From positions 1 to 48,426 of IMG/VR virus record IMGVR_UViG_3300047323_000302: DNA of 48,426 bases. One strand, given 5' to 3'. Shown in pieces: positions 798-48,426 of this stretch. Origin of the DNA: a virus. Made by a program: the position numbers and the translations under genes. Position 1 is the first letter of the stretch; each line of letters opens with the position of its first letter. The notes under the pieces are model-generated. The model was not told the origin of the DNA. It saw only the letters and a list, made by a program, of their open reading frames with translations, and made no database searches.

Positions 798-833
798 GGC
801 GTGAGTATTTAAGTGAATACTCACGCCTTTTTT
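798..833 (+). terminator. Hairpin with T-run containing family A site 1, just before the polymerase start
   Basis: A 12-bp perfect stem (798-809 with 816-827) and a 6-base loop are followed by six T's (828-833), the form of an intrinsic terminator. The stem contains a family A palindrome (804-821, one mismatch). The polymerase ATG follows at 834, so the structure may attenuate transcription. If folded in mRNA it would also bring GGGAGG (791-796) to within about 7 nt of that ATG. See the finding on this element. Confidence 0.7.
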
Positions 834-2957
834 ATGTCCGAAGACCGCCTGCACATCGACTTTGAATCACGCTCCCGGCTCGACCTGACCAAAGTAGGGA
901 CCGTGATCTATGCCAACGAGCCGAGCACCAGCTGCTGGTGTTTCGCCTGGGCTTTCAACCACGAAAAAGTGGCCCTGTGGGAGCCGGGCCAGCCAATCCC
1001 CCGACGCATCATCGAGCACATCGCGTCTGGAGGCACCGTTTCCGGCTTCTCGGTGCAGTTTGAGTACCACTGCTGGAACATCATTCTGCCGCGCCAGCTG
1101 GGCATCGAGCTGCCGCCGATGACCTACCAGCAACTCGACTGCACCCAAGCGCGCGCCGTGGTGATGGGCCTGCCGCGCAATCTGGACGCTCTGGCCGGTG
1201 CGCTGGATCAGAAGCACCACCGCATGCAGAAGGACGCCGCCGGGCGCCGGTTGATGCTGCAAATGGCCCGTCCGCGCTACGTCGGACCGGACGGCAGCGT
1301 GACATGGTGGGACGATCCCGACCGCCGCCACCGCCTCGGCCTGTACTGCATGCAGGACGTCGAGGTGGAACGCTGGAGCGAGCACTTCCTGCGCCCACTG
1401 ACGCCGACGCACCGCCAGTATTGGGAAATGGATTTCCGCATGAACTTCATTCGCGGCATCCAGATCGACACCCATCTGGTGGAGCAATCGCGTGACCTGC
1501 TGGAGCTGGCAGCCAAGGGCGCGAACAAGCTGCTGCGCAAGATTACCGGCGGCAAGTGTACCGGTATCGCGCAGATCCAAGGCTTGCGCGACTGGCTGGC
1601 CAGCGAAGGCGTGGAGACCCCCTCGCTGGACAAAGAGCACCTGCAAGCCCTGCTGGACAGTGAGCACGTCGAAGGCAAAGCCCGCGCCGCGCTCCAGCTG
1701 CGCCAAGACTTCGGCAAAGCGTCACTGGCCAAGATCGCCCAGTTCATCCGGCGGACAGCGGACGGACGCATGCACGGCCTGCTGCTGTTCAACGGCGCCG
1801 GTCCGGGGCGCTGGACCGGACAGGGCGCGCAGCTGCACAACCTGCCCCGCCCTGAGCTGGAGGCAAACTTTGTCGAGTACGTAGTACAGATATTACGTAA
1901 TACGGAGTACACCGCTCAGAACAAGTACGACCTGCTGGAAATGGTGTTTGGTGCGGTCCTGCCGCCGATGGCGGACGCGATCCGGGGGTTCATCGTTGCC
2001 AAGCCCAAGCACAAGCTATTCGTCCGCGACTTCTCCAACATCGAAGGTCGCTGCATCGCCCGGATGGCGGGAGAGCAATGGAAGCTGGACGCCTTTGCCG
2101 CGTTCGACGCCGGACGCGGACCGGACCTGTACAAGCTGGCCGTGGCACGCGCGTTTGGTATCCCGGTCGAGGAAGTCACGGACCGCCTGCGTCAGCTGGG
2201 CAAGACAATGGAATTGTCGCTAGGCTATGCTGGCGGATCGCCAGCTTTGGTTAAGCAAGCACGTAAATACGGAATCAATCTCGCTGACTACTATGAGGTA
2301 GTGAGCCAGTCCGTCAGTCGTGCAGCGGTCTCTAAAGCGGAGTGGGGTTGGTCCGTCTTTGGTTTTAAGACAGGCATAAAAGAGCGCACTTGGCTGACCG
2401 CTGAAATGCTCAAGCTAGCCTGGAGGGAGACCAACCCGGCGATAGTGGCCTTTTGGGATAAATTGGATGAGGCAGCTATCTGTGCGGTGCGTGAACCTAA
2501 GAAGGTTTTCAGCTATCGCGGTATCTCGTTTCAGCTAGGGAAGATCAAAGGGATACCCTATTTAATGTGTCAATTGCCCTCCGGGCGATTGCTGTACTAT
2601 CCCTACGCCACATGGACGGAACTCACGACGCCGTGGGGCGCTCAGAGGGAAAGCGTGCGGTTTATGGGTATTAATCCCAACACGCACAAATGGTCTTCAT
2701 CTCACGGACGCGGTGGACTATGGGCAGAGAACATCACCCAAGGAGATAGTTTCGATTTCATCGCAGCGGCCATGCTGCGTTGTGAAAATGCGGGATTCCC
2801 GCCGGTCCTTTCCGTGCATGACGAGAACGTCGCGGAAGCCCCGGAAACAGCGGATGACGCGCTATACGGACGCCTGATGGCACAGCGTCCGCCGTGGGCT
2901 AGAGGCATGCCGCTTGCTGTGGCGGGCTTCTCAGGGCCGCGCTACGCCAAAAAGTGA
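834..2957 (+). CDS. Family A DNA polymerase with 3'-5' exonuclease domain
   Basis: About 707 residues; replicative polymerase of the phage. The N-terminus has a DEDD-type exonuclease signature (HIDFES). The polymerase domain has motif A (DFSNIEGR, near residue 400), motif B (RQLGKTMELSLGYAGG, near 455-470) and motif C (SVHDEN, near 660). An in-frame GTG at 813 would add seven residues but has its nearest Shine-Dalgarno 16 nt away. ATG 834 is preferred because a hairpin could bridge GGGAGG to it. Part of the gene (about 2220-2720) is visibly more AT-rich than its flanks, suggesting mosaic origin. It follows the SSB and nuclease genes and precedes the partition genes. Confidence 0.9.
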   Translation: MSEDRLHIDFESRSRLDLTKVGTVIYANEPSTSCWCFAWAFNHEKVALWEPGQPIPRRIIEHIASGGTVSGFSVQFEYHCWNIILPRQLGIELPPMTYQQLDCTQARAVVMGLPRNLDALAGALDQKHHRMQKDAAGRRLMLQMARPRYVGPDGSVTWWDDPDRRHRLGLYCMQDVEVERWSEHFLRPLTPTHRQYWEMDFRMNFIRGIQIDTHLVEQSRDLLELAAKGANKLLRKITGGKCTGIAQIQGLRDWLASEGVETPSLDKEHLQALLDSEHVEGKARAALQLRQDFGKASLAKIAQFIRRTADGRMHGLLLFNGAGPGRWTGQGAQLHNLPRPELEANFVEYVVQILRNTEYTAQNKYDLLEMVFGAVLPPMADAIRGFIVAKPKHKLFVRDFSNIEGRCIARMAGEQWKLDAFAAFDAGRGPDLYKLAVARAFGIPVEEVTDRLRQLGKTMELSLGYAGGSPALVKQARKYGINLADYYEVVSQSVSRAAVSKAEWGWSVFGFKTGIKERTWLTAEMLKLAWRETNPAIVAFWDKLDEAAICAVREPKKVFSYRGISFQLGKIKGIPYLMCQLPSGRLLYYPYATWTELTTPWGAQRESVRFMGINPNTHKWSSSHGRGGLWAENITQGDSFDFIAAAMLRCENAGFPPVLSVHDENVAEAPETADDALYGRLMAQRPPWARGMPLAVAGFSGPRYAKK

Positions 2958-2974
2958 GTATTTAAGTAAATACT
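2957..2974. repeat. Family A palindrome, copy 2 (perfect)
   Basis: AGTATTTA-AG-TAAATACT, a perfect 8+8 bp inverted repeat with a 2-bp spacer. It overlaps the polymerase stop codon and lies about 100 bp upstream of parA, the position of an operator for the partition transcript. Confidence 0.85.
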
Positions 2975-3008
2975 TGTGGTGTGGTGGCAATTTAACGCCT
3001 ATATTTAC

Positions 3009-3042
3009 GACAGGTTGTCGCACTCCTGCGACAACTTGTAGC
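3009..3042. promoter_or_regulatory. Tandem family B sites upstream of parA (possible partition operator/centromere)
   Basis: Two family B elements lie back to back: CGACAGGTTGTCGCA (3008-3022) and TGCGACAACTTGTAGC (3027-3042). Their inner halves form a 9-bp inverted repeat (3014-3022 with 3027-3035) with a 4-base loop. In type Ib partition loci the RHH protein commonly binds repeats just upstream of parA, both to repress the operon and to form the partition complex. These repeats are the obvious candidate, but other B sites also occur at non-par loci. Confidence 0.6.
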
Positions 3043-3073: not shown

Positions 3074-3691
3074 ATGACTAAACAAAAAGTATGGGCCATT
3101 GTCGGACAGAAAGGTGGAGACGGAAAATCGACCGTTGCCTATGCCCTCTCCTATTACCTCTCAAAGCTCGGTAGGAAAACGACCTTGCTGGACGTAGATC
3201 GGCCTCAATTCTCCAGCGTGCTCTTGAGCAAATTAGGAGATAGGCCACTCGCTTTTAAGCTCGTCCGCTGCATGAATCTAAGAGACATTCCTAAGCACGC
3301 GGATGGCTTCGACGCGGTAATTTTCGATGGAGCCCCCCACGCCAGTGTGGATACGCTAATGCTCTGTGAGCACGCCGATTGTGTGGTGATCCCTACCCGA
3401 ACCTCGACAATCAATCTAAAGCCTGCCCTTGAGCTAGCGGAGGAATTGGTGGCCAACGGCACCCCCAAGAAGAAAATCATTTTCCTAGTCAGTCAGGCAC
3501 TCACTGACGCAGAAGCCCGTGATGCTAAGGAAACAATCGCCGCGCACAACTTCCGAGTAGTAGACGAAGATCTACGCATGTACGCCGCTTACGGTAAGGC
3601 AGGGGATGCAGGACGCTCCGTTTTAGAGGTGCCTTACGTCTCTCTACGCACTCGCGCAGAAGCTGTTTTTGCCGAGTTAGCAAAAGCCTAA
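3074..3691 (+). CDS. parA: ParA-type partition ATPase
   Basis: A 205-residue Walker-type ParA/MinD-superfamily ATPase, the size of type Ib ParA proteins such as ParF. It shows the deviant Walker A motif (QKGGDGKST, near residue 15), Walker A' (LDVDRPQ) and Walker B (FDAVIFDGAP). It has no N-terminal HTH extension, so it would not bind its operator directly. The start is ATG 3074 with GGGGG about 9 nt upstream; an in-frame GTG at 3059 lacks a good site. The next gene encodes an RHH-like protein, completing a ParA plus RHH adaptor pair. Its base composition is more AT-rich than the structural genes, consistent with separate origin. Expected role: segregation of the extrachromosomal prophage. 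Confidence 0.88.
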   Translation: MTKQKVWAIVGQKGGDGKSTVAYALSYYLSKLGRKTTLLDVDRPQFSSVLLSKLGDRPLAFKLVRCMNLRDIPKHADGFDAVIFDGAPHASVDTLMLCEHADCVVIPTRTSTINLKPALELAEELVANGTPKKKIIFLVSQALTDAEARDAKETIAAHNFRVVDEDLRMYAAYGKAGDAGRSVLEVPYVSLRTRAEAVFAELAKA

Positions 3692-3726: not shown

Positions 3727-4059
3727 ATGGTTATTAAAGTAAATACTCAGACTGAAAAGAAGGATGGCCGGACCGTCAACAGCAAGACCGGTCAGCGCAA
3801 TAGAGGGCAGATTACGCGCATGTCTATCGACCTGACGCGCGAAGAACAGAAAACGTTTCTGATGCAGGCCATCGACCACAACATGACGCTGCGCGGCTTC
3901 TTCTATCACATATGGAAATTCTACGAAGCGAAGGCCGCTGAGGGCGAGACCGACGATTTCAGTTGGAATGCTGTGGCAGAAGACGAACCGCTGACTGGCT
4001 CGCAGGTGGCGAAAAATGCCGTGTCGGAAGCAAAGAAGCGCCGCGCTACCAGCGCTTAA
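3727..4059 (+). CDS. Ribbon-helix-helix partition adaptor (ParB/ParG-like)
   Basis: About 110 residues. After a basic, flexible N-terminus, residues from about 25 read as an RHH fold: a strand (QITRMSIDLT), a helix (REEQKTFLMQAIDHN) and a second helix (TLRGFFYHIWKFYEAKA). An acidic/basic tail follows. This layout, directly after parA, matches centromere-binding partners of type Ib partition loci, whose N-terminal tail stimulates the ATPase. ATG 3727 is chosen because GAGG lies about 10 nt upstream; a TTG at 3703 is possible. It is also a candidate for binding the dispersed palindromes, since RHH proteins read short inverted repeats. Confidence 0.6.
   Translation: MVIKVNTQTEKKDGRTVNSKTGQRNRGQITRMSIDLTREEQKTFLMQAIDHNMTLRGFFYHIWKFYEAKAAEGETDDFSWNAVAEDEPLTGSQVAKNAVSEAKKRRATSA
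3730..3747. repeat. Family A-like site, copy 3 (right arm perfect)
   Basis: GTTATTAA-AG-TAAATACT: the right arm matches the consensus 8/8, the left arm 5/8. It overlaps the first codons of the RHH gene and is the only good A match within a coding sequence, so it may be a translational or autoregulatory site, or a chance match. Confidence 0.4.
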
Positions 4060-9965: not shown

Positions 9966-11246
9966 TCAAATCCCCGCTGCTTGAATTTCTTGAGGGCTGT
10001 GCCCGCCTTGCACCAGACGCTGGATGACCGCTTGCCGCGACTTACCGCTGGCCACGGCGTTTTTCGCGGCCACCAGATCGGGGTGCAGGCCACCAGCTGG
10101 CGCGGCAGCGGGTGCGGCGGCTGGCATTGGCATAGGCGCCGGGGCGGCCTGCGGTGCTGCGAATTGCTGCGCCAGATTCGGCAGCGGCGGACGCTGGCCA
10201 GCGGGCAAGGTGTTGACTTGCTCGGGCGTATTCGAGGAAAGCCACGGTTCTTGGGCAGGCGTAATGCTGGGCGCTTGGCCGAACACTTCGGCGGTGGCGC
10301 GCTGAATCGCGCCGTACTGGTCGCGCGGGTTTTGCTGGAGGTAGTGCGCGGCACGGGTGCGCACTTCGGCCAGATCGGCAGGCAATATCGACGGGTTAAC
10401 CAGCCAACCTTTGTCATCTTGGGTGCTGCCCGGAAGGCTTTGCAGCAAGGCATTATCAAACTTGGCCGGGTCCACCGCGCTGCCGCCGCCGCTGCCAGTG
10501 GTCTTGTTTACGTCGTGCTCGGTGTCGAACTGCTTGGCCAAACGTGACTGGTCCGCTGTGTACTGCGTGCCCTCTAGCCCCTTCGCGTTGCGGTCCATGC
10601 CCACGTCATAATCGACATCGTTTTTGTCGAGCGCAGCCGCGTTTGTGAGGTTGTGGTAGCGCGTGTTCTCGGCGTTGGTGTTGGCCTCGGCGGTCTGATA
10701 GAAGCGGTTGCGCTCATGCCCCACAGCGGCCTGCGCGTTGGAGCCGTAAATCGAGGCGTTGTATTGCAGGTCATCGCCCCGGCGCGTGGTGTCGTTTTTC
10801 TGGTTGGCTTCGGCGGTCTGGCGGTCCTGATTGGCGTTAAAGCCCAATTGAGTATTTGCGTAATTACCACCGTTACCCATCGACAGCGTGGCTTGCACCA
10901 TCGGGCTTACGGTCTCGCCTTGTGCTGCGCCGGACGCATACAGCGCTTCGTTGAAGCCGCCCATTTCCTTGAGGACGGACGGATCTGCACCGCGCATCAA
11001 TTCAATCCCGGCGCCGCGATAATTGCCTTGTCCGTAAAGGTCCGCCGCTGTGTTGCGCGATGTCCGCGAATCGTTAATCACGTCGCCCTGGAGTTGTTTC
11101 AGCCGTGCGTTACTGGCGTAACCCTGAATTTGCAAGTCGCGCAGCGGGTTGGGCGCCATGGCCTGGAACACACTGCCCAGCGCGCCGATTTCGTTGCTGT
11201 AGGTCGGTACGCCGTTGGCGTAGAGCGGGTTTGCGAGAGTGGCCAT
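9966..11246 (-). CDS. Internal virion/ejection protein, Gln/Asn-rich
   Basis: A 426-residue protein between two other internal virion genes. The N-terminus (MATLANPLYANGVPTY) is followed by a long helical region rich in N, Q and A, then a Pro/Ala linker (PAPMPMPAAAPAAAPA) and a short C-terminal helix-rich motif (LHPDLVAAKNAVASGKSRQAVIQRL). No enzymatic motif is visible. Position in a three-gene ejection cluster and the low-complexity helical composition suggest an ejectosome component; this is inference from synteny. Confidence 0.6.
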   Translation of the reverse strand: MATLANPLYANGVPTYSNEIGALGSVFQAMAPNPLRDLQIQGYASNARLKQLQGDVINDSRTSRNTAADLYGQGNYRGAGIELMRGADPSVLKEMGGFNEALYASGAAQGETVSPMVQATLSMGNGGNYANTQLGFNANQDRQTAEANQKNDTTRRGDDLQYNASIYGSNAQAAVGHERNRFYQTAEANTNAENTRYHNLTNAAALDKNDVDYDVGMDRNAKGLEGTQYTADQSRLAKQFDTEHDVNKTTGSGGGSAVDPAKFDNALLQSLPGSTQDDKGWLVNPSILPADLAEVRTRAAHYLQQNPRDQYGAIQRATAEVFGQAPSITPAQEPWLSSNTPEQVNTLPAGQRPPLPNLAQQFAAPQAAPAPMPMPAAAPAAAPAGGLHPDLVAAKNAVASGKSRQAVIQRLVQGGHSPQEIQAAGI

Positions 11247-14400: not shown

Positions 14401-16511
14401 GATTTCTCTCCCTGTCCGCTGAAATGAATCATCAGGTTGGCCAGACGGGCATAACCGCGCGCCCGGCTTTTCAGCGTCAGGCTGAAGTGCGTGGACTGCC
14501 CAACCACCACGCAGCGGCCCCAGCTGCCATACGTGGAGTCCTCCAGAATGCCGACCAGCTCCGTCACTTCCGGCTGCTGCGGATCGAGCGCAAGGAACAC
14601 CGACCAAAAGCCTTCTGCGCCTGTGTCCACGGCTTCAAGATTTTTGGTCTGTCCGGGCTGTCCGGCGTCGAGGAACGGCAGCTGCACTTCGTATTCAAAT
14701 TCCTCGTTGGCCGCGTATTCCTGTCCGGTCTGTCCGCCGTACAGGCACAGCCGGTCGCCCACGCGCGCGATGATGCTGCGGTGGGAAACGGCCAGATCGG
14801 TGACGGTGCGCGAGCCGTCCGTATCGCCCAATTCCTCCAGCACGTAGGTGGTCCACGCGCTGACTTTCGAGCCGGGGAAGTGGCTGAACACGTAGATGGT
14901 GGGTCCGACCGCCAAGAGATAGCGGCCCTCGAAAGGCTCCGTCGTCGCCACGGCATCGCGCACCAGTGTTTCGTCCAGCGCGTGCGTGTACTCCAGCACC
15001 TCGCCATCAATCGAGCTGCCCACGTCGTCCGCGCTGGCAAGGTTGGACGAGTCGCGCGCCCGCAAAGAACGAATGCCGGACTCGGACAGAAAGAACACGT
15101 CTTGCTCGCCAAAGGCCGAGAGGGTTTTCGGGCTGTTGGTGCCGATGTTTATCAGCACCTGAATCTGCGCGTTCTGCGCTTCGTCCGCATCGACGGACCA
15201 GATCTGCGTGTTACGCCGGGATAGCACGGCCATTTTGTTCTGGTAGACCGCAAGCCCGGTCAGCTGGCTGGAACCGCCGTCTTGCGTGGACATGTTGACG
15301 AACCCGGCGCCTGTGGTGCCGGTGTCCCATTGGGTCGGGTCCGGGCGCGGCGGATCGCCGGTAAAGCCAGAGAAATACATGAGGCTCTGCGCCACGGCAT
15401 ACATCTTGTCGCCCAAGGTCCGCACAAAGGTGGCGGTGCCGGACGCCCCGGCCTGCACGCTGATGACGGCGCCGTTGATGTTGACCTGGAACAAGTCCGG
15501 CACTTCAAAGGTGCCGCCCACAGTAAACGTCACCACTTGTGACATGCCGGTCACGGGCGTTACCCCGCCCGACATTGTGGCCGGTGTGCTCAGCGTGACG
15601 TTACCAGCGACCACGCTGGCTACCGGGAAGGCGTTGGGGCCAGCGCCTGCGGTGTCGGACGTGATGATGACATTGGCGCCGGACGCCAGCGCCGAATAGT
15701 TCGGCAGCGTCAATTGGCTGTTGATCTGCTGGGCGATGGCGGTTGCCGTGGTGCCGTTGGCACTGCGCCAGTCCACCGGCACTGTCAGCAGTTCCACGTT
15801 GTTGACCTTGATTGAGCGTATTTGGTTGACGCCCTGCGCTTCCGTGCCGCCGGTCACGGTTATTGTGGCTGTGGCCTGCTTGGCAGCCACGCCCGCGACA
15901 GCGGCCTGATTCAGCGTTGGGGACAGCGAGTCGTCTGGATTGGCGCCGTGGTTGTAACTGGCAGAGCCGTAGGTGAAGGCCACGCCCGGCACGTCCGCCG
16001 TGACCACAGCGGACGTACCCGTGGCAATCGCGCTGATCCCGTCCATGGCATCGAGCTTGGCCGCTAGCGCTGTGGCGATGGTCTGGTTGCTGCCCACGGA
16101 CGCGGCGATGGCGTCCCAATCGGTGACGCGCACGCCGTCGAAGTAGTGGTAGATCGAGCCGTCCCCAAACTCCGCGACCACATAAATTTTGCCGTCGAAG
16201 TTGTCCGTGCTGAGGATCTTGCTCAGGTAAGCGCCGGTCGGGCTGGCCAGGTATTGATAAATCACCCCGGCAGGCGTGACCACGTTAGGGACCGAACCAA
16301 ACACGTATATCTGCCCGCGCACCGTGGCCACGCCGCACGTCTGGCCCGCTGGCAGGGTGTAGACCGGCACGAACTTCTTGCGTACCTCAACCTCACCGCC
16401 TCGCGTCAGGTGGACATTGCGCGCCACACGCAGCGAACCGGGCGCTGCCGTGAAACGGCTTTTGCGGGTGTCCAGTCCGGCGATAAAGTCGGTGATAAGT
16501 AGGTACGCCAT
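14397..16511 (-). CDS. Tail nozzle/stabilisation-like protein
   Basis: 704 residues, rich in Thr, Val, Gly and Ser. It starts MAYLLITDFIAGLDTRKSRF, a pattern common in large podovirus tail tube or nozzle proteins (GLDTR; RNVHLTRGGEVEVRKKF). The middle is Ala/Thr-rich with no cysteine motifs, and the C-terminal half has repeated short strands (IYVFSHFPGSKVSAWTTY, DRLCLYGGQTGQEY) compatible with a beta-propeller. It follows the adaptor gene by 3 nt. By position and length it is the counterpart of P22 gp10 or T7 gp12-like proteins, but homology is not proven here. Confidence 0.65.
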   Translation of the reverse strand: MAYLLITDFIAGLDTRKSRFTAAPGSLRVARNVHLTRGGEVEVRKKFVPVYTLPAGQTCGVATVRGQIYVFGSVPNVVTPAGVIYQYLASPTGAYLSKILSTDNFDGKIYVVAEFGDGSIYHYFDGVRVTDWDAIAASVGSNQTIATALAAKLDAMDGISAIATGTSAVVTADVPGVAFTYGSASYNHGANPDDSLSPTLNQAAVAGVAAKQATATITVTGGTEAQGVNQIRSIKVNNVELLTVPVDWRSANGTTATAIAQQINSQLTLPNYSALASGANVIITSDTAGAGPNAFPVASVVAGNVTLSTPATMSGGVTPVTGMSQVVTFTVGGTFEVPDLFQVNINGAVISVQAGASGTATFVRTLGDKMYAVAQSLMYFSGFTGDPPRPDPTQWDTGTTGAGFVNMSTQDGGSSQLTGLAVYQNKMAVLSRRNTQIWSVDADEAQNAQIQVLINIGTNSPKTLSAFGEQDVFFLSESGIRSLRARDSSNLASADDVGSSIDGEVLEYTHALDETLVRDAVATTEPFEGRYLLAVGPTIYVFSHFPGSKVSAWTTYVLEELGDTDGSRTVTDLAVSHRSIIARVGDRLCLYGGQTGQEYAANEEFEYEVQLPFLDAGQPGQTKNLEAVDTGAEGFWSVFLALDPQQPEVTELVGILEDSTYGSWGRCVVVGQSTHFSLTLKSRARGYARLANLMIHFSGQGEKS

Positions 16512-16514
16512 TAC

Positions 16515-17201
16515 TCAAGTCCCCGGCGCTTTGATCGTGATCGGCACCCATGGGACTGGCTGCCCGGCGGCAATCGGGTACACGCGCTTGCGCTGCGTGT
16601 TGCCCTTGATGCGCCGGTAGTGCGCATCCGCCATCGCCAGCACGGTTTCGGCGGATGGGTCTTTGGCCTTCTGTAGCCACTCTCCGGCAGCGAACAAGAC
16701 GATCAGCCTGTCATCGAGCACGGCGCGGTCCGCGTCCTCGCGCAGCGGCGGCAGTTTCATCATGCCGGTGAAGCGCAAAATGCCCGTGCTGTTGGCGGGC
16801 ATTGGCCAAACCTCGTATTGGTTGTCCTCGTAGTATTCCCAGGCGCAGACCGGATCGCGGCGCTCGTCCAGCTCGCCGTCGCAGTCGTTGCGCATCCACA
16901 GATCAATGCCGTACAGGACCGGGCGCCATTGGCTGTCCGCCGTTTCGCGGACCTTCGTTGCTTCCAGTCGGTCCGGGTCCAGCTCTGGCGGAAAGCTGTA
17001 GTAGCGCTCCCCGGCCTTCAACACCTCGTCGCGCTGCATGCGCAGGAACGGCCACGACCAATCCGCGTACAGGACTTCTTGGGTCCGGCGCAGCTTGGTC
17101 TTGATCGACTCCAGCGCGTTTTGTGACATCGCGGCAGTGCTGGCCATCCCGGCTTCATTGCGAAATTCAACCACCAGTTCGCCCAGCGTCGTGCCGCGCA
17201 T
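16515..17201 (-). CDS. Head-tail adaptor (tail tubular A / gp4-like) protein
   Basis: 228 residues, mostly helical with conserved-looking aromatics (EVLYADWSWPFLRMQRDEVLKAGERYYSFP, DLWMRND, YEDNQYEVWPMPANSTGILRF, AAGEWLQKAKDPSAETVLAMADAHYRRIKG). This order is typical of podovirus adaptor proteins that bind the portal ring. GGAG lies 9 nt before the ATG, and the gene sits 3-6 nt from its neighbours in the operon, between capsid and tail genes as expected. Confidence 0.7.
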   Translation of the reverse strand: MRGTTLGELVVEFRNEAGMASTAAMSQNALESIKTKLRRTQEVLYADWSWPFLRMQRDEVLKAGERYYSFPPELDPDRLEATKVRETADSQWRPVLYGIDLWMRNDCDGELDERRDPVCAWEYYEDNQYEVWPMPANSTGILRFTGMMKLPPLREDADRAVLDDRLIVLFAAGEWLQKAKDPSAETVLAMADAHYRRIKGNTQRKRVYPIAAGQPVPWVPITIKAPGT

Positions 17202-17207
17202 AGTCGT

Positions 17208-17636
17208 TTACTCCGTCAGTTGCGGGTGCTTGCGCGGACGTCCGCCAAGGTTGCGCGCTTGCGGCGCGTCACCGGGCTCTTGTGGCTCTTGTTCGTCCGG
17301 CACTGGCGGGTAATCGTCGTCATCCTCGCCTTCGTCAAAGGCGGACTGCTCGATGTCGGCCAGCTTGGTCGGCACGCTGGGGTTGCGTCCGGGGTAAACG
17401 GCCTCGATCAACGAGCCGCCTTCTTTGGTGACGTTGGAATTGGCGTAGTCCATGCGCAGCCGGGCCAGATCCTGAGCGGGCTTTTCCCGGCCTACAAAGG
17501 TGGGCTTGATGTTGCCCACGGCGTCCGGTCCGTGGATCGCGCGCAAGAGCGCGATTTCAGCCACCGTCACGTCCGTTTTGTGTACGGACGAATTGCGGTC
17601 GCCATCCAGATAAACGATGCAGGAGCAATGTTGCAT
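17208..17636 (-). CDS. Small virion-operon protein with acidic patch and basic tail
   Basis: 142 residues, first gene after the capsid gene. The N-terminal part (MQHCSCIVYLDGDRNSSVHKTDVTVAEIALLRAIHG) is compact. Then follow an acidic stretch (FDEGEDDDDYPPVPDEQEPQEPGD) and a basic end (NLGGRPRKHPQLTE) with a GRPRKHP element like an AT-hook. GAGGG lies 7 nt before the ATG. It may be a head-completion or decoration protein, but no family was recognised. Confidence 0.6.
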   Translation of the reverse strand: MQHCSCIVYLDGDRNSSVHKTDVTVAEIALLRAIHGPDAVGNIKPTFVGREKPAQDLARLRMDYANSNVTKEGGSLIEAVYPGRNPSVPTKLADIEQSAFDEGEDDDDYPPVPDEQEPQEPGDAPQARNLGGRPRKHPQLTE

Positions 17637-17662
17637 GTTGGAACCCTCGGCTATAAGTAGGC

Positions 17663-17748
17663 GCGCGGATACTCAAGGTCTGACAGCTAACGACTCACCC
17701 ACGTCAGCTGTCAGTTTTGCCACTTGAGTATCCGCGCAAATACTCAAG
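17663..17748. repeat. Nested inverted repeats with family A site 4, downstream of the capsid gene
   Basis: An outer 15-bp perfect inverted repeat (17663-17677 GCGCGGATACTCAAG with 17723-17737) encloses an inner 9-bp repeat (17680-17688 with 17706-17714). The right outer arm is part of a second palindrome, CTTGAGTAT (17723-17731) with ATACTCAAG (17740-17748), which includes a family A-like site (AGTATCCG-CG-CAAATACT, 17727-17744) covering the capsid stop codon. It could form a large hairpin in mRNA between the capsid and adaptor genes, acting as a partial terminator or processing site that raises capsid expression. Confidence 0.7.
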
Positions 17749-19873: not shown

Positions 19874-19889
19874 GTCACGCCTCACGATG

Positions 19890-19907
19890 AGTATTTAAGT
19901 AAATACT
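19890..19907. repeat. Family A palindrome, copy 5 (perfect), between divergent genes
   Basis: AGTATTTA-AG-TAAATACT, identical to copy 2. It lies in a 58-bp gap between the leftward scaffold gene and the rightward gene at 19932, so one bound protein could control both directions. Confidence 0.85.
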
Positions 19908-19931
19908 GTCTGAGGCACAGTGTAGCCAAAC

Positions 19932-20986: not shown

Positions 20987-21208
20987 CTACCAGATGTGTG
21001 CGACGGACAGTAGCTTGATAAGCACGCCGGTTACGGTCGCCACGGAGACCACCAAGCCGGTAGCTATCGCCATCGGGAACCAGAAGGTTTCGCGCGTCAG
21101 CTTGCCAGCCTCAGCGTGCAGCTTCGTGGTCTCGGCGCTGAGCTTCATGGTTTCCGCCATAAGCTTGTTGATGTTTGCGTGGACCTGCTCAATTTCTTCG
21201 GGGGTCAT
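20987..21208 (-). CDS. Coiled-coil protein with C-terminal membrane helix
   Basis: 73 residues. Residues 12-42 form a striking 7-residue repeat (KLMAETM-KLSAETT-KLHAEAG-KLTRET), a parallel coiled coil. One transmembrane helix follows (FWFPMAIATGLVVSVATVTGVLIKLL). Similar small heptad-plus-TM proteins are widespread in proteobacterial prophages, with no settled function. The gene overlaps the 3' end of rep by 20 nt, so it belongs to the rep operon. Membrane anchoring of the replication or maintenance complex is one idea; holin-like activity is another. Confidence 0.6.
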   Translation of the reverse strand: MTPEEIEQVHANINKLMAETMKLSAETTKLHAEAGKLTRETFWFPMAIATGLVVSVATVTGVLIKLLSVAHIW

Positions 21209-21746
21209 CAGCGTTCTCCGGCGGGAACATTTCCTGCTGTGGTTTGGTTTTTTCGGGCTTCGCCAGCTTCCTGTGCCAAGGGTCGTTGCCCTCGACTGGA
21301 GCCGCGACCATGCCGGGGATCGGGCTAAGCGGGTCGGTGGTCAGGTTGTCTTCGTCGGCGGAAGACACCAGCACTTGCGCGCGGAAAGAGGCCAGCCGCA
21401 AGTTATCGCGCTTGTCAGCCCAAGCCACGCAAGAGTTGACCACGTAGGCCAGCACGCCGCCGCGCTCGCTACCGATGCGGACGGCTTGAATCCACTTGTT
21501 CTGGACAAGGTACGCAAGGGCGCGCTTGACGGTGGACGCGGACAGGCCGGACAGCTCGCAAAGCGTGGCATGGCTGACGACGAGCGCGTTTGAGTTGTCC
21601 ATGTGCTCGATGAGGATGTGCAAAATCTGGCTCGCACGCGGCTGCTTGCCTGTCAGCCTTGACCACTCGCCATGGGCTGCGCGCTCAGTCTGCACCCAGC
21701 TCCCGTGTGGCTTGTCTTCTACCAGTGCTTTTGCCATTTTCCTCAC
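21189..21746 (-). CDS. RepL-like winged-helix replication initiator
   Basis: About 185 residues. The core (SQILHILIEHMDNSNALVV, LCELSGLSASTVKRALAYLVQNKWIQAVRIGSERG) is a winged helix. A following segment (LAYVVNSCVAWADKRDNLRLASFRAQVLVSS) resembles plasmid replication proteins of the RepL/HTH type. Start GTG 21746 has AAGGA 9 nt upstream; a more distal TTG at 21797 is excluded because it lies in the -35 box. A strong promoter lies just upstream and an iteron array begins 24 bp beyond the -35, the usual arrangement for an iteron-controlled plasmid replicon. A pure regulator role is the alternative. Confidence 0.65.
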   Translation of the reverse strand: MRKMAKALVEDKPHGSWVQTERAAHGEWSRLTGKQPRASQILHILIEHMDNSNALVVSHATLCELSGLSASTVKRALAYLVQNKWIQAVRIGSERGGVLAYVVNSCVAWADKRDNLRLASFRAQVLVSSADEDNLTTDPLSPIPGMVAAPVEGNDPWHRKLAKPEKTKPQQEMFPPENADDPRRN

Positions 21747-21769
21747 CGCGTTGATTCCTTGTGAGCTAA

Positions 21770-21797
21770 AGTATATCGATAGCCGGTTATTCGTCAA
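21770..21797 (-). promoter_or_regulatory. Sigma70-type promoter of the rep operon
   Basis: On the minus strand, -35 TTGACG (21797-21792), 16-bp spacer, -10 TATACT (21775-21770); each hexamer matches consensus 5/6. Transcription would start near 21763, giving a short leader with AAGGA before GTG 21746. The iterons sit immediately upstream, so Rep binding could repress or activate it. Confidence 0.75.
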
Positions 21798-21820
21798 TAG
21801 TGGCTGCTAGCTCCCAAAGA

Positions 21821-21968
21821 TGACCTAAGTTAGGTCAAACCCCGAATCTGACCTAAGTTAGGTCATTCATGGGAGCTATCGCGCAAATATGACCTAGGTT
21901 AGGTCAAAGCTATGACCTAGGTTAGGTCAACCCTTGACCTAACCCTAGGTCAACCCTTGACCTAACCC
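21821..21968. repeat. Palindromic iteron array (putative plasmid-mode origin)
   Basis: Four full palindromes: TGACCTAAGTTAGGTCA at 21821-21837 and 21849-21865, TGACCTAGGTTAGGTCA at 21890-21906 and 21913-21929. A variant with perfect 6-bp arms follows at 21935-21952 (TGACCTAACCCTAGGTCA), and a half site TGACCTAACCC at 21958-21968. The last four are spaced about 22-23 bp, roughly two helical turns. A 9-bp inverted repeat (21808-21816 with 21870-21878) flanks the first two. The motif was not seen elsewhere in the window. Its position just upstream of rep suggests origin or copy-control iterons. Confidence 0.8.
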
Positions 21969-22119
21969 CCTCGCTGAAAGCCTTGATTTAGAGCCTTCGA
22001 CAAATCGTCCTTTCTAATGATCTAGGTCCGCCCCACCCCTGACGCGCTTCGCTTGTCTGCCCAGCCGTGGCACGGCGCTGCTGCGCATCACCGCACCCCG
22101 TCCGGGCTTCATGAAAATT

Positions 22120-22135
22120 ACGACAAACTGTAGCA
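22120..22135. repeat. Family B site
   Basis: ACGACAAACTGTAGCA, a diverged match to TGCGACA-NN-TTGTCGCA. It ends 6 bp upstream of the -35 of the promoter at 22142. Confidence 0.5.
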
Positions 22136-22141
22136 GTGTTT

Positions 22142-22169
22142 TTGACACGTAAGTATTTGTGTGCATACT
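22142..22169 (+). promoter_or_regulatory. Sigma70-like promoter overlapped by family A site 6
   Basis: -35 TTGACA (22142-22147, perfect), 16-bp spacer, -10 CATACT (22164-22169, 4/6). The A site AGTATTTG-TG-TGCATACT (22152-22169) covers spacer and -10, the ideal position for a repressor. No clear gene follows rightward before the terminator at 22321, so its product may be a short RNA. Confidence 0.6.
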
Positions 22170-22302
22170 GTCACCTGCAAGTCCCTATTGCATCTGGCCG
22201 GACACCGGGGCTTTAGGTTGGTGGTTGTGCATGTGCTTTAAGCGTTTCCCTCACGGGTCGGGTTTCCGGGGTAGTGTCCTGATTCCCAACCGCCCCCATC
22301 GG

Positions 22303-24909: not shown

Positions 24910-24922
24910 GGCGCGCACCTTG

Positions 24923-24940
24923 AGTATTCAAGTAAATACG
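24923..24940. repeat. Family A palindrome, copy 7
   Basis: AGTATTCA-AG-TAAATACG (7/8 and 7/8) in the 35-bp gap between the terminase stop and the portal start, placing a control point in front of the portal gene. Confidence 0.75.
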
Positions 24941-24944
24941 TACT

Positions 24945-26555: not shown

Positions 26556-26570
26556 TGGGGCTGGCCGTTA

Positions 26571-26588
26571 AGTATTTACGTAAATACG
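26571..26588. repeat. Family A palindrome, copy 8
   Basis: AGTATTTA-CG-TAAATACG (8/8 and 7/8), 16 bp upstream of the terminase start codon and after the stop of the holin-like gene. Confidence 0.8.
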
Positions 26589-26609
26589 TAATAGCACAGT
26601 CCGTCGCAG

Positions 26610-30758: not shown

Positions 30759-30802
30759 GACGACACCTCGTTTCTTGGATGTCGTCAGTGTAGCAATCTG
30801 TA

Positions 30803-30820
30803 AGTATTTACGTACTTACT
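30803..30820. repeat. Family A site, copy 9
   Basis: AGTATTTA-CG-TACTTACT: left arm 8/8, right arm 6/8. Upstream of the leftward fibre operon. Nearly identical to copy 13 at 38633. Confidence 0.65.
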
Positions 30821-30918
30821 TACAGTAAATCGGTCTGAAACCCGCGTCCTTGCGTGTCAAATGCCGTTCGTCCGATTCTCCTGTATCAGCTGGCAGCCGG
30901 TGCGGTGGTTACGAAATT

Positions 30919-30934
30919 ACGACACTCTGTCGCA
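30919..30934. repeat. Family B site
   Basis: ACGACACTCTGTCGCA, right arm near-perfect, in the non-coding region upstream of the fibre operon about 100 bp from an A site. Confidence 0.55.
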
Positions 30935-31164
30935 CTTATCTGTGCATTTTGAAAAACTGTATTGGTGGCCGATAGAGATGAATGCGCGCGGACCGCACAT
31001 GGGTGGAGGGGCGGACCGGGCCGGGGTGAGCAGGTGGGTGGCCGGTCGGTTGGTGCCTGCTGCCTGCTGCGCCCCGTCATTGAGCCCTCGTCCGCTGTCC
31101 ACGGACGAAGGAAAAGCAGCGATCAACTTATCCTTAGTCCTCTGTGGACTGCGGATAGCATGCG

Positions 31165-31662: not shown

Positions 31663-31768
31663 CTGCTGCGCCCACTTAGTTATGCCCTGGTAAAGCGCAG
31701 CATAGAGCACGCGGCAACTAACGGCTGTCCGCCGTCCGCAACTAAGCGGACGAAAGGCCTTTACACAG

Positions 31769-31815
31769 TGCGACACCTTGTCGTAGTGTAGTGGCTCAGT
31801 ATTTACTGAAATACT
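31769..31815 (+). promoter_or_regulatory. Early promoter with B site at -35 and A site at -10
   Basis: The B site TGCGACACCTTGTCGTA (31769-31785) contains -35 TTGTCG (31778-31783). After 16 bp, -10 TATTTA (31800-31805) lies in A site copy 10 (AGTATTTA-CT-GAAATACT, 31798-31815). The gene at 31848 starts 33 bp downstream. The arrangement repeats at 32846-32893. Confidence 0.6.
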
Positions 31816-31847
31816 GATTAAGCCCTGACACTACCGGAGCTACAGCC

Positions 31848-32192
31848 ATGAACATGACCAACGAACAGATCCGCGCCCAATACCCTGAAACAGCCGAACG
31901 TATCATTGGCGAGCGCGCTGTAATCCGTCGCCTTGTGACTGAGGCACTGAAGCGCGGCCTAACCGTATCTATCAACGACGGCGAAGAATGGGCGCTCAAG
32001 CACTCGGTAAAGCTGACCGAAGTTATGTCCGCCATCATGAGCACGGACGAGGACTATCTGCGCCTGTGCAACGCCGACAAGAGCATTGCCGCCACGTTCC
32101 ACCTGATATACGGCAACAGCCCCGAGGAAGTTATTGCGGACTGCTCGACTAACGCACTAGCCAATGAGTTGTGCGCCATCGCTGACCGTTGA
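31848..32192 (+). CDS. Early protein of unknown function
   Basis: 114 residues, helical, mildly acidic (MNMTNEQIRAQYPETAERIIGERAVIRRLVTEALKRGLTV). GGAGC lies 7 nt before ATG. It follows the A/B-controlled promoter, so it is probably an early or lysogeny-related gene. No motif recognised. Confidence 0.65.
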   Translation: MNMTNEQIRAQYPETAERIIGERAVIRRLVTEALKRGLTVSINDGEEWALKHSVKLTEVMSAIMSTDEDYLRLCNADKSIAATFHLIYGNSPEEVIADCSTNALANELCAIADR

Positions 32193-32260
32193 TGAATGAA
32201 CCTTGCCCACTCTGACAGTGGGCAAGCTTGATTCATCCGCACACTACGGAGCACAACACC

Positions 32261-32569
32261 ATGGCTTACCCGAACAACTTTTGCGTAACGACTGCCTACA
32301 AAGGCCCGACGAATTCGCGCGGCTCGCGCATTGAGGCTAAATGCCAAGGCGGACGCCATACCCGCGCCTATGACGCCGAATTGAGCGCCGTCGAGAACCA
32401 CGAACAAACCGCGCGCGAGCTGGCCAGCTACATGGGCCACCCGAGCGAGCCAATCGGCGCGCAGTTGCCGGACTACGACAACTACGCGTGGATCTTCCCA
32501 AAGACCAACGCCGAACACCCGGCGGACTGCCTTTGCTCGCGCTGCACTGGCGCCATAGGGGGCAACTAA
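32261..32569 (+). CDS. Unknown protein with C-terminal CxxC
   Basis: 102 residues (MAYPNNFCVTTAYKGPTNSRG ... ADCLCSRCTGAIGGN). The C-terminus has LCSRC, perhaps half of a zinc site with the earlier cysteines. The middle (YDAELSAVENHEQTARELASYMG) is helical. GGAG lies 9 nt before the ATG. The stop overlaps the next ATG (TAATG). Confidence 0.6.
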   Translation: MAYPNNFCVTTAYKGPTNSRGSRIEAKCQGGRHTRAYDAELSAVENHEQTARELASYMGHPSEPIGAQLPDYDNYAWIFPKTNAEHPADCLCSRCTGAIGGN

Positions 32570-32772
32570 TGTCCGTCGTAATGGCCTTTTTCTACACGTC
32601 CGACGTAGCACAAATGGCGATCCCTCTGGACAATGCCGAGCCACTGCAAAAGGTTATGCGCACCGTCCATGCCGTGGCCCGCTTGAGCCGCGCAGACAGC
32701 TATCAACTGCTGCGCCTGAACTACCACAAACCGCCCACGCCGATAACGCACCGATACCACCTGCAACACTGA
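32569..32772 (+). CDS. Small unknown protein
   Basis: 67 residues (MSVVMAFFYTSDVAQMAIPLDN...HRYHLQH). GGGGG lies 5-8 nt before its ATG, which overlaps the previous stop. Basic C-terminus. Last gene of a three-gene unit ended by the terminator at 32777. Confidence 0.55.
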   Translation: MSVVMAFFYTSDVAQMAIPLDNAEPLQKVMRTVHAVARLSRADSYQLLRLNYHKPPTPITHRYHLQH

Positions 32773-32776
32773 ACAG

Positions 32777-32800
32777 AGCCCCGCCAGCCGGGGCTTTTTT
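32777..32800 (+). terminator. Intrinsic terminator
   Basis: AGCCCCG (32777-32783) pairs with CGGGGCT (32789-32795), loop CCAGC, followed by TTTTTT. It separates the small-gene unit from the CobS-like unit. Confidence 0.85.
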
Positions 32801-32845
32801 GTGCCTGTCCGTTGGTCGGTCCGCCGTCCGCCGGACTTGATAGAG

Positions 32846-32893
32846 TGCGACACCTTGTCGTATTCTGAAAGCCTACGTATTTACGTAGATACT
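32846..32893 (+). promoter_or_regulatory. Early promoter of the ATPase operon with B site at -35 and A site at -10
   Basis: B site TGCGACACCTTGTCGTA (32846-32862) holds -35 TTGTCG (32855-32860). After 17 bp, -10 TATTTA (32878-32883) lies in A site copy 11 (CGTATTTA-CG-TAGATACT, 32876-32893). ATG 32915 follows with GGGAG. The B sites here and at 31769 are identical over 17 bp. Confidence 0.65.
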
Positions 32894-32914
32894 CAACTTG
32901 TGGGAGCTGAGGAA

Positions 32915-35536: not shown

Positions 35537-35693
35537 TTTTGTCCCCGTTTATTTTCTCTGTCCCTCTTTTTTCCGACCCTACAACCACCAATAAAATCAG
35601 GCACTTACAGCGCAAAATGTACCCTTAAATGGCTGTCCCTGTTCTCTTGTATCCACTGACAACGTACGTAGTGTGTGTGGGTGTGTGTATGTG

Positions 35694-35725
35694 TGCGACA
35701 CAATGTATGTGCGACACTTTGTATA
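35694..35725. repeat. Two family B sites in tandem
   Basis: TGCGACACAATGTATG (35694-35709) and TGCGACACTTTGTATA (35710-35725) are direct repeats; left arms are perfect, right arms degenerate. Confidence 0.55.
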
Positions 35726-35796
35726 TGTGTATATTGCTCTTAGGTGTACTAATGTATATTTAAGTAGGACAACTAGGACAAATATATAGAGTAATA

Positions 35797-35814
35797 AGTA
35801 TTTCAGTAGCTACT
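35797..35814. repeat. Family A site, copy 12
   Basis: AGTATTTC-AG-TAGCTACT (7/8 and 6/8) in the middle of the AT-rich region upstream of the resolvase gene. Confidence 0.6.
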
Positions 35815-35904
35815 ACAACGACTTACAAAATTTTCAGTGCGACAAACAACTAGGACAACAAGACGGACAAAACACGGACAACGCCTGGTAAAACACGGAC
35901 AAAG

Positions 35905-35942
35905 TGCGACAACTTGTATCCAGTACACGACAACTTGTCGCA
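35905..35942. repeat. Two family B sites adjacent to the primase stop
   Basis: TGCGACAACTTGTATC (35905-35920) and CACGACAACTTGTCGCA (35926-35942), the latter the best B match in the window. They are 21 bp apart, two helical turns, suggesting cooperative binding. Confidence 0.65.
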
Positions 35943-35950
35943 CTAGTCCG

Positions 35951-38593: not shown

Positions 38594-38650
38594 CGGTCTA
38601 GGACGCGGACCGCCCTAGACCGTTTGATTATAAGTATTTACTTACTTACT
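38594..38650. promoter_or_regulatory. Hairpin and family A site 13 upstream of the HTH-primase operon
   Basis: CGGTCTAGG (38594-38602) pairs with CCTAGACCG (38614-38622). The A site AGTATTTA-CT-TACTTACT (38633-38650; 8/8 and 6/8) follows. They occupy the gap between the small-gene operon and the HTH gene, a likely internal control point in the leftward early arm. Confidence 0.65.
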
Positions 38651-38654
38651 CAAA

Positions 38655-44114: not shown

Positions 44115-44477
44115 CTACTTGTTGATTTTATCGGTGAGGTAATGCGGCGGAACACTACTGAGGTAGTCCGCTATATCAAGTACACAAAGAGTTTTGTAGC
44201 CAGATTCACGGGCCTGCCGTTTGGCATCCATGATTGCGATTTCGCGTATGAGGGTTTTGGACTGGTAGCAGTAGTAGTGCGTGATTCCGATGTTTCCTTT
44301 CTGTACGGAGAGGACTATGTGCAATCCCGGTGTGACTCCGTAGTGGTCCAGCTTCCTAGCGTTTTCCCTTCGCTCGGTCTCCTTGTCGATGACCGTTAAC
44401 CCTAACGCTCGCTGCATGTCGCGCAGCATTTGTTGCTCTTGGATTTGTTGTGATCGCGCAGCGGTTTGTGTACGCAT
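44115..44477 (-). CDS. Unknown protein, first gene of the leftward early arm
   Basis: About 120 residues (MRTQTAARSQQIQEQQMLRDMQRALGLTVIDKETERRENARKL). A basic/Gln-rich helical start leads to an alpha/beta part (GLHIVLSVQKGNIGITHYYCYQSKTLIREIAIMDAKRQARESGYKTLCVLDIADYL). AAGGA precedes two consecutive ATGs (44480, 44477). Being promoter-proximal in the early leftward operon and next to int, it may be a host-takeover or regulatory protein, but no family was recognised. Confidence 0.55.
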   Translation of the reverse strand: MRTQTAARSQQIQEQQMLRDMQRALGLTVIDKETERRENARKLDHYGVTPGLHIVLSVQKGNIGITHYYCYQSKTLIREIAIMDAKRQARESGYKTLCVLDIADYLSSVPPHYLTDKINK

Positions 44478-44480
44478 CAT

Positions 44481-44671
44481 TCAGTCCTTCGGAGGGTTGT
44501 GGGTTGGTAGTGCAACTCAAGTCCTAGCCCGAGTGTGCTACAGGTCGTCGTACATCACAATAGCAGACGCTCAGTATTTACGTAGATAAGCAGCTGCTAC
44601 ACTCTATCGCATTGCCAGCCGGTGCCAGACAAGCAGGCGACCAGCGGCCACCGCTCACTGAGGTTTAGACC
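44481..44671. promoter_or_regulatory. Divergent early control region with A site 14 and a B site
   Basis: 191 bp between the leftward early arm and the rightward replication arm. It holds A site AGTATTTA-CG-TAGATAAG (44573-44590; 8/8 and 5/8) and B site TGCTACACTCTATCGCA (44595-44611), centres about 21 bp apart. No consensus promoter is clear, but divergent promoters must lie here, making it the best candidate for the main lysis-lysogeny switch. Confidence 0.6.
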
Positions 44672-44938
44672 ATGAGCTTCGATGTTCAAGCGATTTTCAA
44701 CCTGTTTGGCGGACGTTCAGCGATTTTCGCACGCCTGAACACCCGCCGTCATCCCATTACTATCCGCGCGTTAGACAAGTGGCGCGAGCGTGGTTCAATC
44801 CCGCCGGTCTGGTTAGCGCATATCACCAAGTTGGCGGACGCGGACGGGATCGACTTCAACTTGCACAAGTTTCTGCAACGTGACGCGCCTCCCAAAAATG
44901 AAGCGTCAGCCAAAGAACTGCACTCTTTACTGGACTAA
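44672..44938 (+). CDS. Cro-like HTH protein (carph-isopro-type), candidate regulator
   Basis: 88 residues. FNLFGGRSAIFARLNTRRHPITIRALDKWRERGSIPPVWLAHITKLA follows the pattern of small phage HTH proteins of the carph-isopro/YdaS type (GG...A..L......W..RG.IP..W). GAGG lies 8 nt before ATG. It is the first gene after the divergent A/B control region, the position of Cro in lambdoid phages, so it is a good candidate for binding the A or B palindromes. Confidence 0.65.
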   Translation: MSFDVQAIFNLFGGRSAIFARLNTRRHPITIRALDKWRERGSIPPVWLAHITKLADADGIDFNLHKFLQRDAPPKNEASAKELHSLLD

Positions 44939-46624: not shown

Positions 46625-46637
46625 GGTTTCAGAGATA

Positions 46638-46655
46638 AGTATTTAAGTAAACACT
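46638..46655. repeat. Family A palindrome, copy 15
   Basis: AGTATTTA-AG-TAAACACT (8/8 and 7/8) in the 80-bp gap after the helicase and before the gene at 46705. Confidence 0.75.
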
Positions 46656-46704
46656 TAACCACTTATCGCAACTTGAGACCACACCAGCGAAACAGAGGCA
46701 TGTT

Positions 46705-47253: not shown

Positions 47254-48426
47254 CCACGTTCGTGCTCAAGCCGGGCAAGGAAGCCAAGGACAGCGAGCAC
47301 AGCGCGCTGGGCGGTTCAGTCATCGCCCTTGTCGAGCTGTGCCCCGGCTCCTACCGGCTCAGCAAAGGCATGCCCAACACTGCCGGGCACTTCGCGCGCG
47401 AGGGATCGCTTGCGCATGAGCTGGCCGCGCACTGCCTTGAAAACGGCTTTTTCCCCAAGCGCTTCCTTGGCAAGACCATGCCCGGTTTCGAGGACATGAA
47501 GATCGACAAGGAAATGGTGCTCTACATCACCGAGTACGTGGACTACTGCCGCGCGCAGTGCGAACCGGGCGACGTGGTGTTGATCGAGGCCAGTTTCAAC
47601 CTCGACGAGCTGGTGACGGACGCGCCGGAATCGCTGTTTGGTTCGGCGGACTTCACCCGTTACCGGCCACGGACCGGCCACCTGCTGACGCTGGACCTGA
47701 AATACGGTTCTGGCGTGGCGGTGGAAGTGCGCAACGAGAAAGGCCAACCCAACCGCCAGACGTTGTACTACGCGACCGGCGCGACCCTGAAGCTGCGCGA
47801 GCAAGGCTACAAGGTCAAGTCCGCGTCCGTGGGCATCTTCCAGCCGCGCGCCATGCACCCGCACGGACCGGTGCGCATGGCCGACGTCAGCGCGCTGGAC
47901 CTGCTCGACTGGATGGGCGACCTGGCAGTCATTGTCCGCAATGCCGGACGCCCGGACGCGCCGCTGGTGGCTGGGCATCACTGCCGCGAGAAGTTTTGCA
48001 AGGCGTTGCCCCGCTGCAAAACCCATCAGGCATGGCTCATGTCGCAAGCGCAGCTGGAGTTCAGCGACGGCCTGTTGCAGCCGATCTTTGACGACCCGTC
48101 ACTGCTCAGCCACGACGACATCACCCGCGTGCTCGACGCCGCTCCGGCGTTGGTGGCGTGGGTGAAGGCCTGCCAAGACTACACGCACCGCACGCTGGAA
48201 AAAGGCGACGAGTTCCCCGGCTGGAAGCTGGTGGACAAGCGCGCCACTCGTTCATGGGACGGCGATCAAGACGAGATTGCCGCCGAGCTGGTGAAGCTCG
48301 GCGCGGACCCGGCTGCCATTTGGGACCGCTCCCTGTTGTCGCCCGCACAAGCGGAAAAGCTGCTTGAAAAAGACCGCCGCCCGGACATGGCCAACCTGAC
48401 CAAAAAAGTTTCCAGCGGCACCACCC
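47250..48426 (+). CDS. DUF2800 PD-(D/E)XK nuclease, N-terminal part (continues at 1)
   Basis: 392 codons from GTG 47250 to the window end; the rest is at 1-195, and the closed gene has 414 residues. RecB/Cas4-like motifs: FGSADF (motif II Asp), LLTLDLKYGSG (motif III, DxK) and QTLYYATGA (motif IV). Cysteines LCPGSYRL near residue 34 and HCREKFCKALPRC near 248-258 (Cx4Cx5C) resemble the four-cysteine iron-sulphur arrangement of Cas4/AddB nucleases. It should be the exonuclease of the replication-recombination module, with the SSB just downstream. GTG is used because it overlaps the preceding stop. Confidence 0.85.
   Translation, partial: MTTFVLKPGKEAKDSEHSALGGSVIALVELCPGSYRLSKGMPNTAGHFAREGSLAHELAAHCLENGFFPKRFLGKTMPGFEDMKIDKEMVLYITEYVDYCRAQCEPGDVVLIEASFNLDELVTDAPESLFGSADFTRYRPRTGHLLTLDLKYGSGVAVEVRNEKGQPNRQTLYYATGATLKLREQGYKVKSASVGIFQPRAMHPHGPVRMADVSALDLLDWMGDLAVIVRNAGRPDAPLVAGHHCREKFCKALPRCKTHQAWLMSQAQLEFSDGLLQPIFDDPSLLSHDDITRVLDAAPALVAWVKACQDYTHRTLEKGDEFPGWKLVDKRATRSWDGDQDEIAAELVKLGADPAAIWDRSLLSPAQAEKLLEKDRRPDMANLTKKVSSGTT
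48300..48426. repeat. Terminal direct repeat, right copy
   Basis: Identical to bases 1-127. Joining the copies gives a circle of 48,299 bp and restores the nuclease frame. Confidence 0.9.

Follow-up and report, generated by a model that had tools for sequence, protein, structure and literature searches.

Two site families at the promoters of a tailed phage, one of them most likely the box of a partition protein used as a genome-wide operator

Introduction

Two promoter regions of a phage genome, at 31760 and 32837, share a pair of short sites, here called B and A. Do these sites supply the promoter hexamers themselves, or are they operators laid over a promoter, and which proteins would read them? 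We addressed this in the whole stretch of DNA analysed, referred to as the window, which comprises the 48,426 nucleotides of IMG/VR virus record IMGVR_UViG_3300047323_000302.

The window ends in an exact 127-bp repeat (1-127 and 48300-48426), so it is very likely a circular tailed-phage genome; a DUF2800 gene running from 47253 spans the join of this repeat. Coding sequence accounts for 91% of the window and non-coding DNA for 9%. On the replication side the genes match DNA polymerase, a Gp2.5-like ssDNA-binding protein, DNA helicase, primase and RusA, and further matches are to ParA, integrase, terminase, major head protein and tail fibre. Rfam and tRNA searches of the window gave no match. 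The close relatives used for comparison are the IMG/VR contigs G002 (48,498 bp) and G005 (48,211 bp) and the fragments G033, G003 and L126, with G013 and G006 as sister lineages. Scans of genome contigs for a host or an integration state confirmed no relative. One virion-region gene contains a 121-bp repeat, 76% identical (12734-12854 and 12974-13094).

Results

The 17-mer GTGCGACACCTTGTCGT occurs identically at both promoters on the plus strand, at 31768-31784 and 32845-32861, one base upstream of where the original prediction had begun it. The A sites are likewise present at 31798-31815 and 32876-32893, and TTGTCG of B is separated from TATTTA of A by 16 and 17 bp, as predicted. The further proposal, that TTGTCG serves as the -35 and TATTTA as the -10, was not supported by comparison with the relatives. 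B and A stand further apart at the two promoters of G033, where the TTGTCG/TATTTA spacers are 23 and 21 bp.

A different promoter is conserved at both places. At promoter 1 it would consist of a -35 TTTACA (31760..31765, plus strand) and a -10 TAGTGT (31784..31789, plus strand), with an 18-bp spacer in four genomes and a -10 of the form TAnTnT in all four. At promoter 2 a promoter scan gives a putative -35 TTGATA (32837..32842) and -10 TATTCT (32861..32866), both on the plus strand, the latter assigned by cross-genome comparison as well. On its right side B is regularly flanked by TA and not by the symmetric CA, both in the list of all B sites and in alignments with G002, G005 and G033, and it is this TA that completes TAnTnT at both promoters. 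Across the two promoters in the window, G002, G005 and G033, the spacer from TTTACA/TTGATA to TAnTnT is exactly 18 bp in all eight cases, with TATACA and TGTACA as -35 variants in the relatives. The 18-bp promoter also outscores TTGTCG/TATTTA in each of the eight (8.0-13.5 versus -2.3 to 7.4 bits, using sigma-70 frequencies that may not be those of the host). Because the best promoter score in shuffled sequence has a median of 6.5 and a 95% point of 11.1, the argument for the 18-bp promoter rests on its conservation and not on its score. In a separate consensus scan TTGATA-18-TATTCT was the sole match in the region, and shuffles yield about one such match.

Retention of the 18-bp promoter, together with the spacing in G033, places B within the -35/-10 spacer and A near +1. 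The B operator of promoter 1 is conserved in G002, G005 and G033. By PWM the A operator of promoter 1 covers 31796..31817 (31.7 bits), beginning near +1, and that of promoter 2 covers 32874..32895 (33.5 bits), upstream of the AAA ATPase gene 32915+. TATTTA was also considered as a general -10 and rejected, as a -35 is absent at most sites with A only. As a separate observation, the 8-mers CGTCCGCC/CGGCGGAC are over-represented in G005 (47 versus 5.7 expected) and are seen at loci L096-L101 (G002, G005); examples in the window lie at 31728-31752 and 32819-32836.

Both families recur through the window, A at about 19 sites and B at about 10, nearly all within intergenic gaps. Strand-matches number 27 for the A pattern and 16 for the B pattern, where shuffles give 0.11 and 1.35. 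The A PWM has 21 hits in the window against approximately none by chance; two pairs of these overlap, hence about 19 sites, and 18 of the 21 touch non-coding DNA. Among the 20 gaps of at least 30 bp, 15 hold A and five do not, these being two convergent gaps and three between same-strand genes. With this PWM, G002 shows 19 sites, G005 17 and G013 none. Families A and B are thus both real and well above chance.

A sites, given here without strand, lie before the DNA polymerase gene (802..823) and parA (2955..2976), and at the equivalent places G013 carries arrays of another motif, A', as does L128 at parA. The parA promoter region also holds two B sites 21 bp apart (3006..3042), and a weaker A site (3728..3749, 24.1 bits) over the start of the RHH gene is absent from G005 and L116. 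An A-like site is found within virion gene 9966-11246 (10849..10870, 21.9 bits), a weak A site at the start of gene 14397-16511 (16496..16517, 18.7 bits; absent from the relatives), and two more before gene 17208-17636, one weak (17654..17675, 15.4 bits) and a second of 27.1 bits (17725..17746). The A site between 18794- (the major head protein operon) and 19965+ (19888..19909, 33.8 bits) is conserved in G002, G003 and G005. A B pattern match on the minus strand (22119..22136) has an A site beside it (22150..22171, 22.9 bits). Strong A sites stand before the portal gene (24921..24942, 32.9 bits; an A' array is there in G013 and G006), the terminase gene (26569..26590, 37.3 bits), the fibre operon (30801..30822, 34.1 bits), which has a minus-strand B site upstream (30918..30935), and an HTH_17 excisionase-like gene (38631..38652, 32.7 bits). 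Between primase and RusA, 35695..35943 contains a weak A site (35795-35816) along with four B-like ones, and an immunity-type divergent region at 44535..44609 has the order B, A (44571-44592), B. The longest A array, at 46636..46665, has four boxes at period 8 and is a candidate centromere.

Two of these neighbourhoods hold other repeats. At 21813-21980, upstream of gene 21189-21797, there are four copies of TGACCTA(A/G)GTTAGGTCA and degenerate ones, which look like an iteron origin or an autoregulatory array; the gene encodes a winged-helix, replication-initiator-like protein and is shared by G002, whereas neither G005 nor the G003 fragment gave a match to it. The AT-rich primase-RusA gap (35540-35950) is rich in GACAA repeats, has GT-rich runs besides the four B-like sites, and is a possible replication origin.

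Read in register, A is a series of tetramer boxes separated by AT-rich 4-bp spacers at a period of 8, as in GAGT-attt-ACGT-aaat-ACTC. Most sites fit [G/A]AGT-attt-[A/G]NGT-aaat-ACT[C/T], with extra boxes added in 8-bp steps, for example at 46636, and are palindromic and placed at gene starts. There are three boxes at most A sites, four at 46636 and up to nine in G013. G013, with no hit to the A PWM, and G006 have A' instead, which is built of GTCC/GTAC boxes with AT-rich 4-bp spacers and the 8-bp period as in A. A' occupies the A loci before polymerase, parA, portal, 17208- and 46705+, as far as the G013 and G006 contigs cover them, and the longest A array and the longest A' array, in G013, share the locus before 46705+. 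This switch of box between lineages was seen once. ParG/omega-type partition operators have such a layout.

The window encodes a probable partition pair. ParA (3074..3691, plus strand, 205 aa) matches phrog_164 and AAA_31, has no N-terminal HTH domain and is of the small, ParF-like type, matching the ParF structure 4dzz at 1e-7. Its probable RHH partner (3727..4059, plus strand, 110 residues), which we propose binds A, has a strand-helix-helix in an AF2 model of low confidence (mean pLDDT 56, helices 70-85). Foldseek with this model returned CopG, MatP, AmrZ, Arc, AtaR and NikA, nearly all of them RHH DNA-binding proteins and every one at E>1. Searches of the protein with family models, ParG included, and against plasmid and phage records gave no match. 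In type Ib systems the flexible N-terminal tail of the partner carries an arginine finger that stimulates the ATPase; the candidate here has a tail of about 30 residues in which R15 and R26 are invariant. Genomes with A keep the RHH strand TRMSIDLT though the proteins are only about 50% identical, and G013 has RRLPVDMP. The par promoter in G013 and L128 has A' and no B, and the divergent immunity region of G013 has a B-like site and no A', so that A goes with par and B with immunity. Since ParA, RHH, HTH and 44115 proteins have all diverged in G013, covariation by itself does not point to the RHH protein rather than another of these.

The 8-bp period extends to other ParA systems. Upstream of 74 non-redundant ParA relatives, tetramers recur (as the same tetramer or its reverse complement) at lag 8 in 331 instances versus 101 expected from shuffles (3.3-fold), a count that takes overlapping tetramers from loci that are not fully independent. 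Lag 16 gives 277 versus 102 (2.7-fold) and other lags at most 1.9-fold. A small RHH-like ORF lies next to parA in most of 13 operons inspected by eye. Enterobacterial plasmids with ParA 36-38% identical have ATGA/TCAT boxes at lag 8, and their partner weakly matches RHH_10 and in one case also ParG; BLASTP of a plasmid partner (L205) against the RHH protein of the window gave no match. In a distant phage, G036 (ParA about 30% identical), arrays of AGCGTT boxes are not confined to parA and the RHH gene: they also stand 20-40 bp before the start codons of several other genes, one of them for an exonuclease, and the 14.5 kb of L207 (G036:4001-18500) contain 10 lag-8 pairs where shuffles give 0.08. 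Dispersed boxes therefore occur in at least two lineages, and G036 encodes its own CI-like repressor. Boxes of this kind are known to mediate repression by ParG and omega (TP228, PMC7308502; pSM19035, PMC9499535). As far as the sequences go, the likeliest reading of A is a box for the partition protein that works as an operator throughout the genome.

For B, position points to a carph-isopro/Cro-like HTH protein encoded at 44672..44938 on the plus strand (NF046037, 39.9 bits, cut-off 38), the best Foldseek matches of which include Xfaso1 Cro and N15 Cro at E of about 1. B sites at 44535 and 44596 lie upstream of this gene. By site position alone 44672 is a plausible reader of B, with its divergent partner 44115..44480 (minus strand, no family match) a rival reader. 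The B half-site GTGCGAC is that of the N15 IR, around a 3-bp centre in B. An N15-like partition role for B was rejected, as we saw no SopB/ParB-type gene in the window and B is missing from the G013/L128 par promoter. A MerR-type activator site was set aside too, given the 18-bp spacer and a small HTH_17 gene as the sole MerR-like candidate.

It had also been predicted that A and B neighbour each other as a code, with early genes answering to two regulators and virion genes to one. The pairs themselves were found, at 22120/22150 and at 44537 and 44596 around 44571; the primase-RusA gap (35695-35943/35795) also has both kinds of site, as have the regions ahead of parA and of the fibre operon (30919/30801). 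Their significance was not borne out: all seven B-bearing gaps also hold A (p=0.08), and as A is already in 15 of 20 gaps this is weak evidence, which we dropped as support for a code. Virion units number five with A only and one with both, the other units three with A only (PolI 813+, 38351- and 46705+) and six with both; the fibre operon carries A and B. Hence early and regulatory units tend to carry both operators and most virion units (5/6) A alone, a tendency only (Fisher p=0.12). What stands is that two operator families, conserved in G002, G005 and G033, share the early promoters, and there are thus probably two regulators.

Discussion

We consider it fairly probable that A comprises the boxes of the RHH partition pair, serving as a phage-wide operator, and that B is the operator of 44672. 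The RHH protein (3727-4059) and ParA (3074-3691) would form a type Ib (ParF/ParG-like) partition pair, with RHH dimers binding the tetramer boxes at their period of 8. As boxes stand at nearly every transcription unit, beyond the par operon, the partition protein may be a phage-wide repressor, acting, at the best-mapped promoters, close to the transcription start or slightly downstream of it, and the dispersed boxes may turn the whole genome into a centromere. Cro-like 44672 would take B as its operator, filling the 18-bp spacer at 31760-31790 and 32837-32867. The sequence itself displays the site families with their positions, conservation and period, the change of box in the sister phages and the setting of the par operon; the protein-site assignments, the repression and the partition function are what we infer. 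A wider version, a class of temperate phages in which one RHH code would govern segregation, lytic-gene silencing and possibly immunity and in which box specificity switched between sister lineages at all loci together, is somewhat less likely to be true than false. Most A arrays have three boxes, and the related pSM19035 system needs four for full ParA activation. Plasmid maintenance is not certain, because an integrase is also present.

Could A instead serve a phage repressor of the classical kind, be it 44672, 44115 or a protein that escaped recognition, through sites dispersed like the L5 stoperators of mycobacteriophage, with the partition pair incidental? The number and spread of the sites and the divergence of the motif among relatives resemble L5-clade stoperators (PMC6550527), and one A site falls within the divergent 44115/44672 region. 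However, boxes of period 8 are a general feature ahead of parA relatives, plasmids included, the G013 immunity region is without A', and A is palindromic and at gene starts, whereas stoperators are one-directional and mostly away from promoters. We judge this reading unlikely.

It is less probable again that A is a centromere only, a set of N15-like dispersed partition sites confined to gaps by gene packing with no part in transcription. Such a role would fit the several SopB sites (IR1-4) of N15 (PMC7205306) and the presence of A in nearly every gap, but the placement of A is consistent, near start codons and, in conserved promoters, at +1, both convergent gaps are without it, and known RHH partition proteins repress via sites of this kind. 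That B is a -35 and A a -10, each occluded by its own repressor, we regard as highly improbable: although TTGTCG-16/17-TATTTA is present in the window and its hexamers and spacers are held in G002 and, with one change, in G005, the lengthened G033 spacers, the eight lost comparisons with TTtACA/TTGATA-18-TAnTnT and the missing -35 at most A-only sites all speak against it.

Boxes of a partition protein at almost every operon, as the favoured reading has it, have partial counterparts. In the pSM19035 delta/omega system the RHH ParB omega binds six parS sites of 7-10 heptads over the copS, delta and omega promoters (PMC9499535). The likeness lies in a ParA with what is here a probable RHH protein and in short contiguous boxes over several promoters, which in the window too would combine regulation and partition; the differences are heptads there and an 8-bp period here, six parS over three promoter regions there and about 19 sites over most operons here, and the location of the window system in a tailed phage. 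With TP228 ParF/ParG/parH (PMC7308502) the window has in common a small ParA matching ParF and degenerate tetramer boxes set apart by AT-rich spacers, and it would also share autorepression and an RHH partner whose N-terminal tail is flexible, but TP228 has a single par locus where the boxes here are genome-wide, and the partner here is too diverged for the ParG model. Cluster A mycobacteriophages have up to about 30 repressor sites phage-wide and similar motif divergence between relatives, yet their stoperators are one-directional, mostly off promoters and bound by the immunity repressor (PMC6550527). The N15 prophage-plasmid also has several partition sites (IR1-4) on a phage genome (PMC7205306), with an HTH-type SopB and four sites, unlike the window, in which no SopB-like gene turned up and the halves of B flank a 3-bp centre.

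If the favoured reading is true, a single protein, acting at sites on nearly all operons, would both drive plasmid segregation and silence phage genes. Such a link is known on a small scale from pSM19035, and the phage-wide scale is not described in the literature searched. The switch of boxes at shared loci would let the joint change of a regulator and its approximately 19 sites be studied, and period-8 tetramer boxes upstream of parA would provide a rule for finding such phages.
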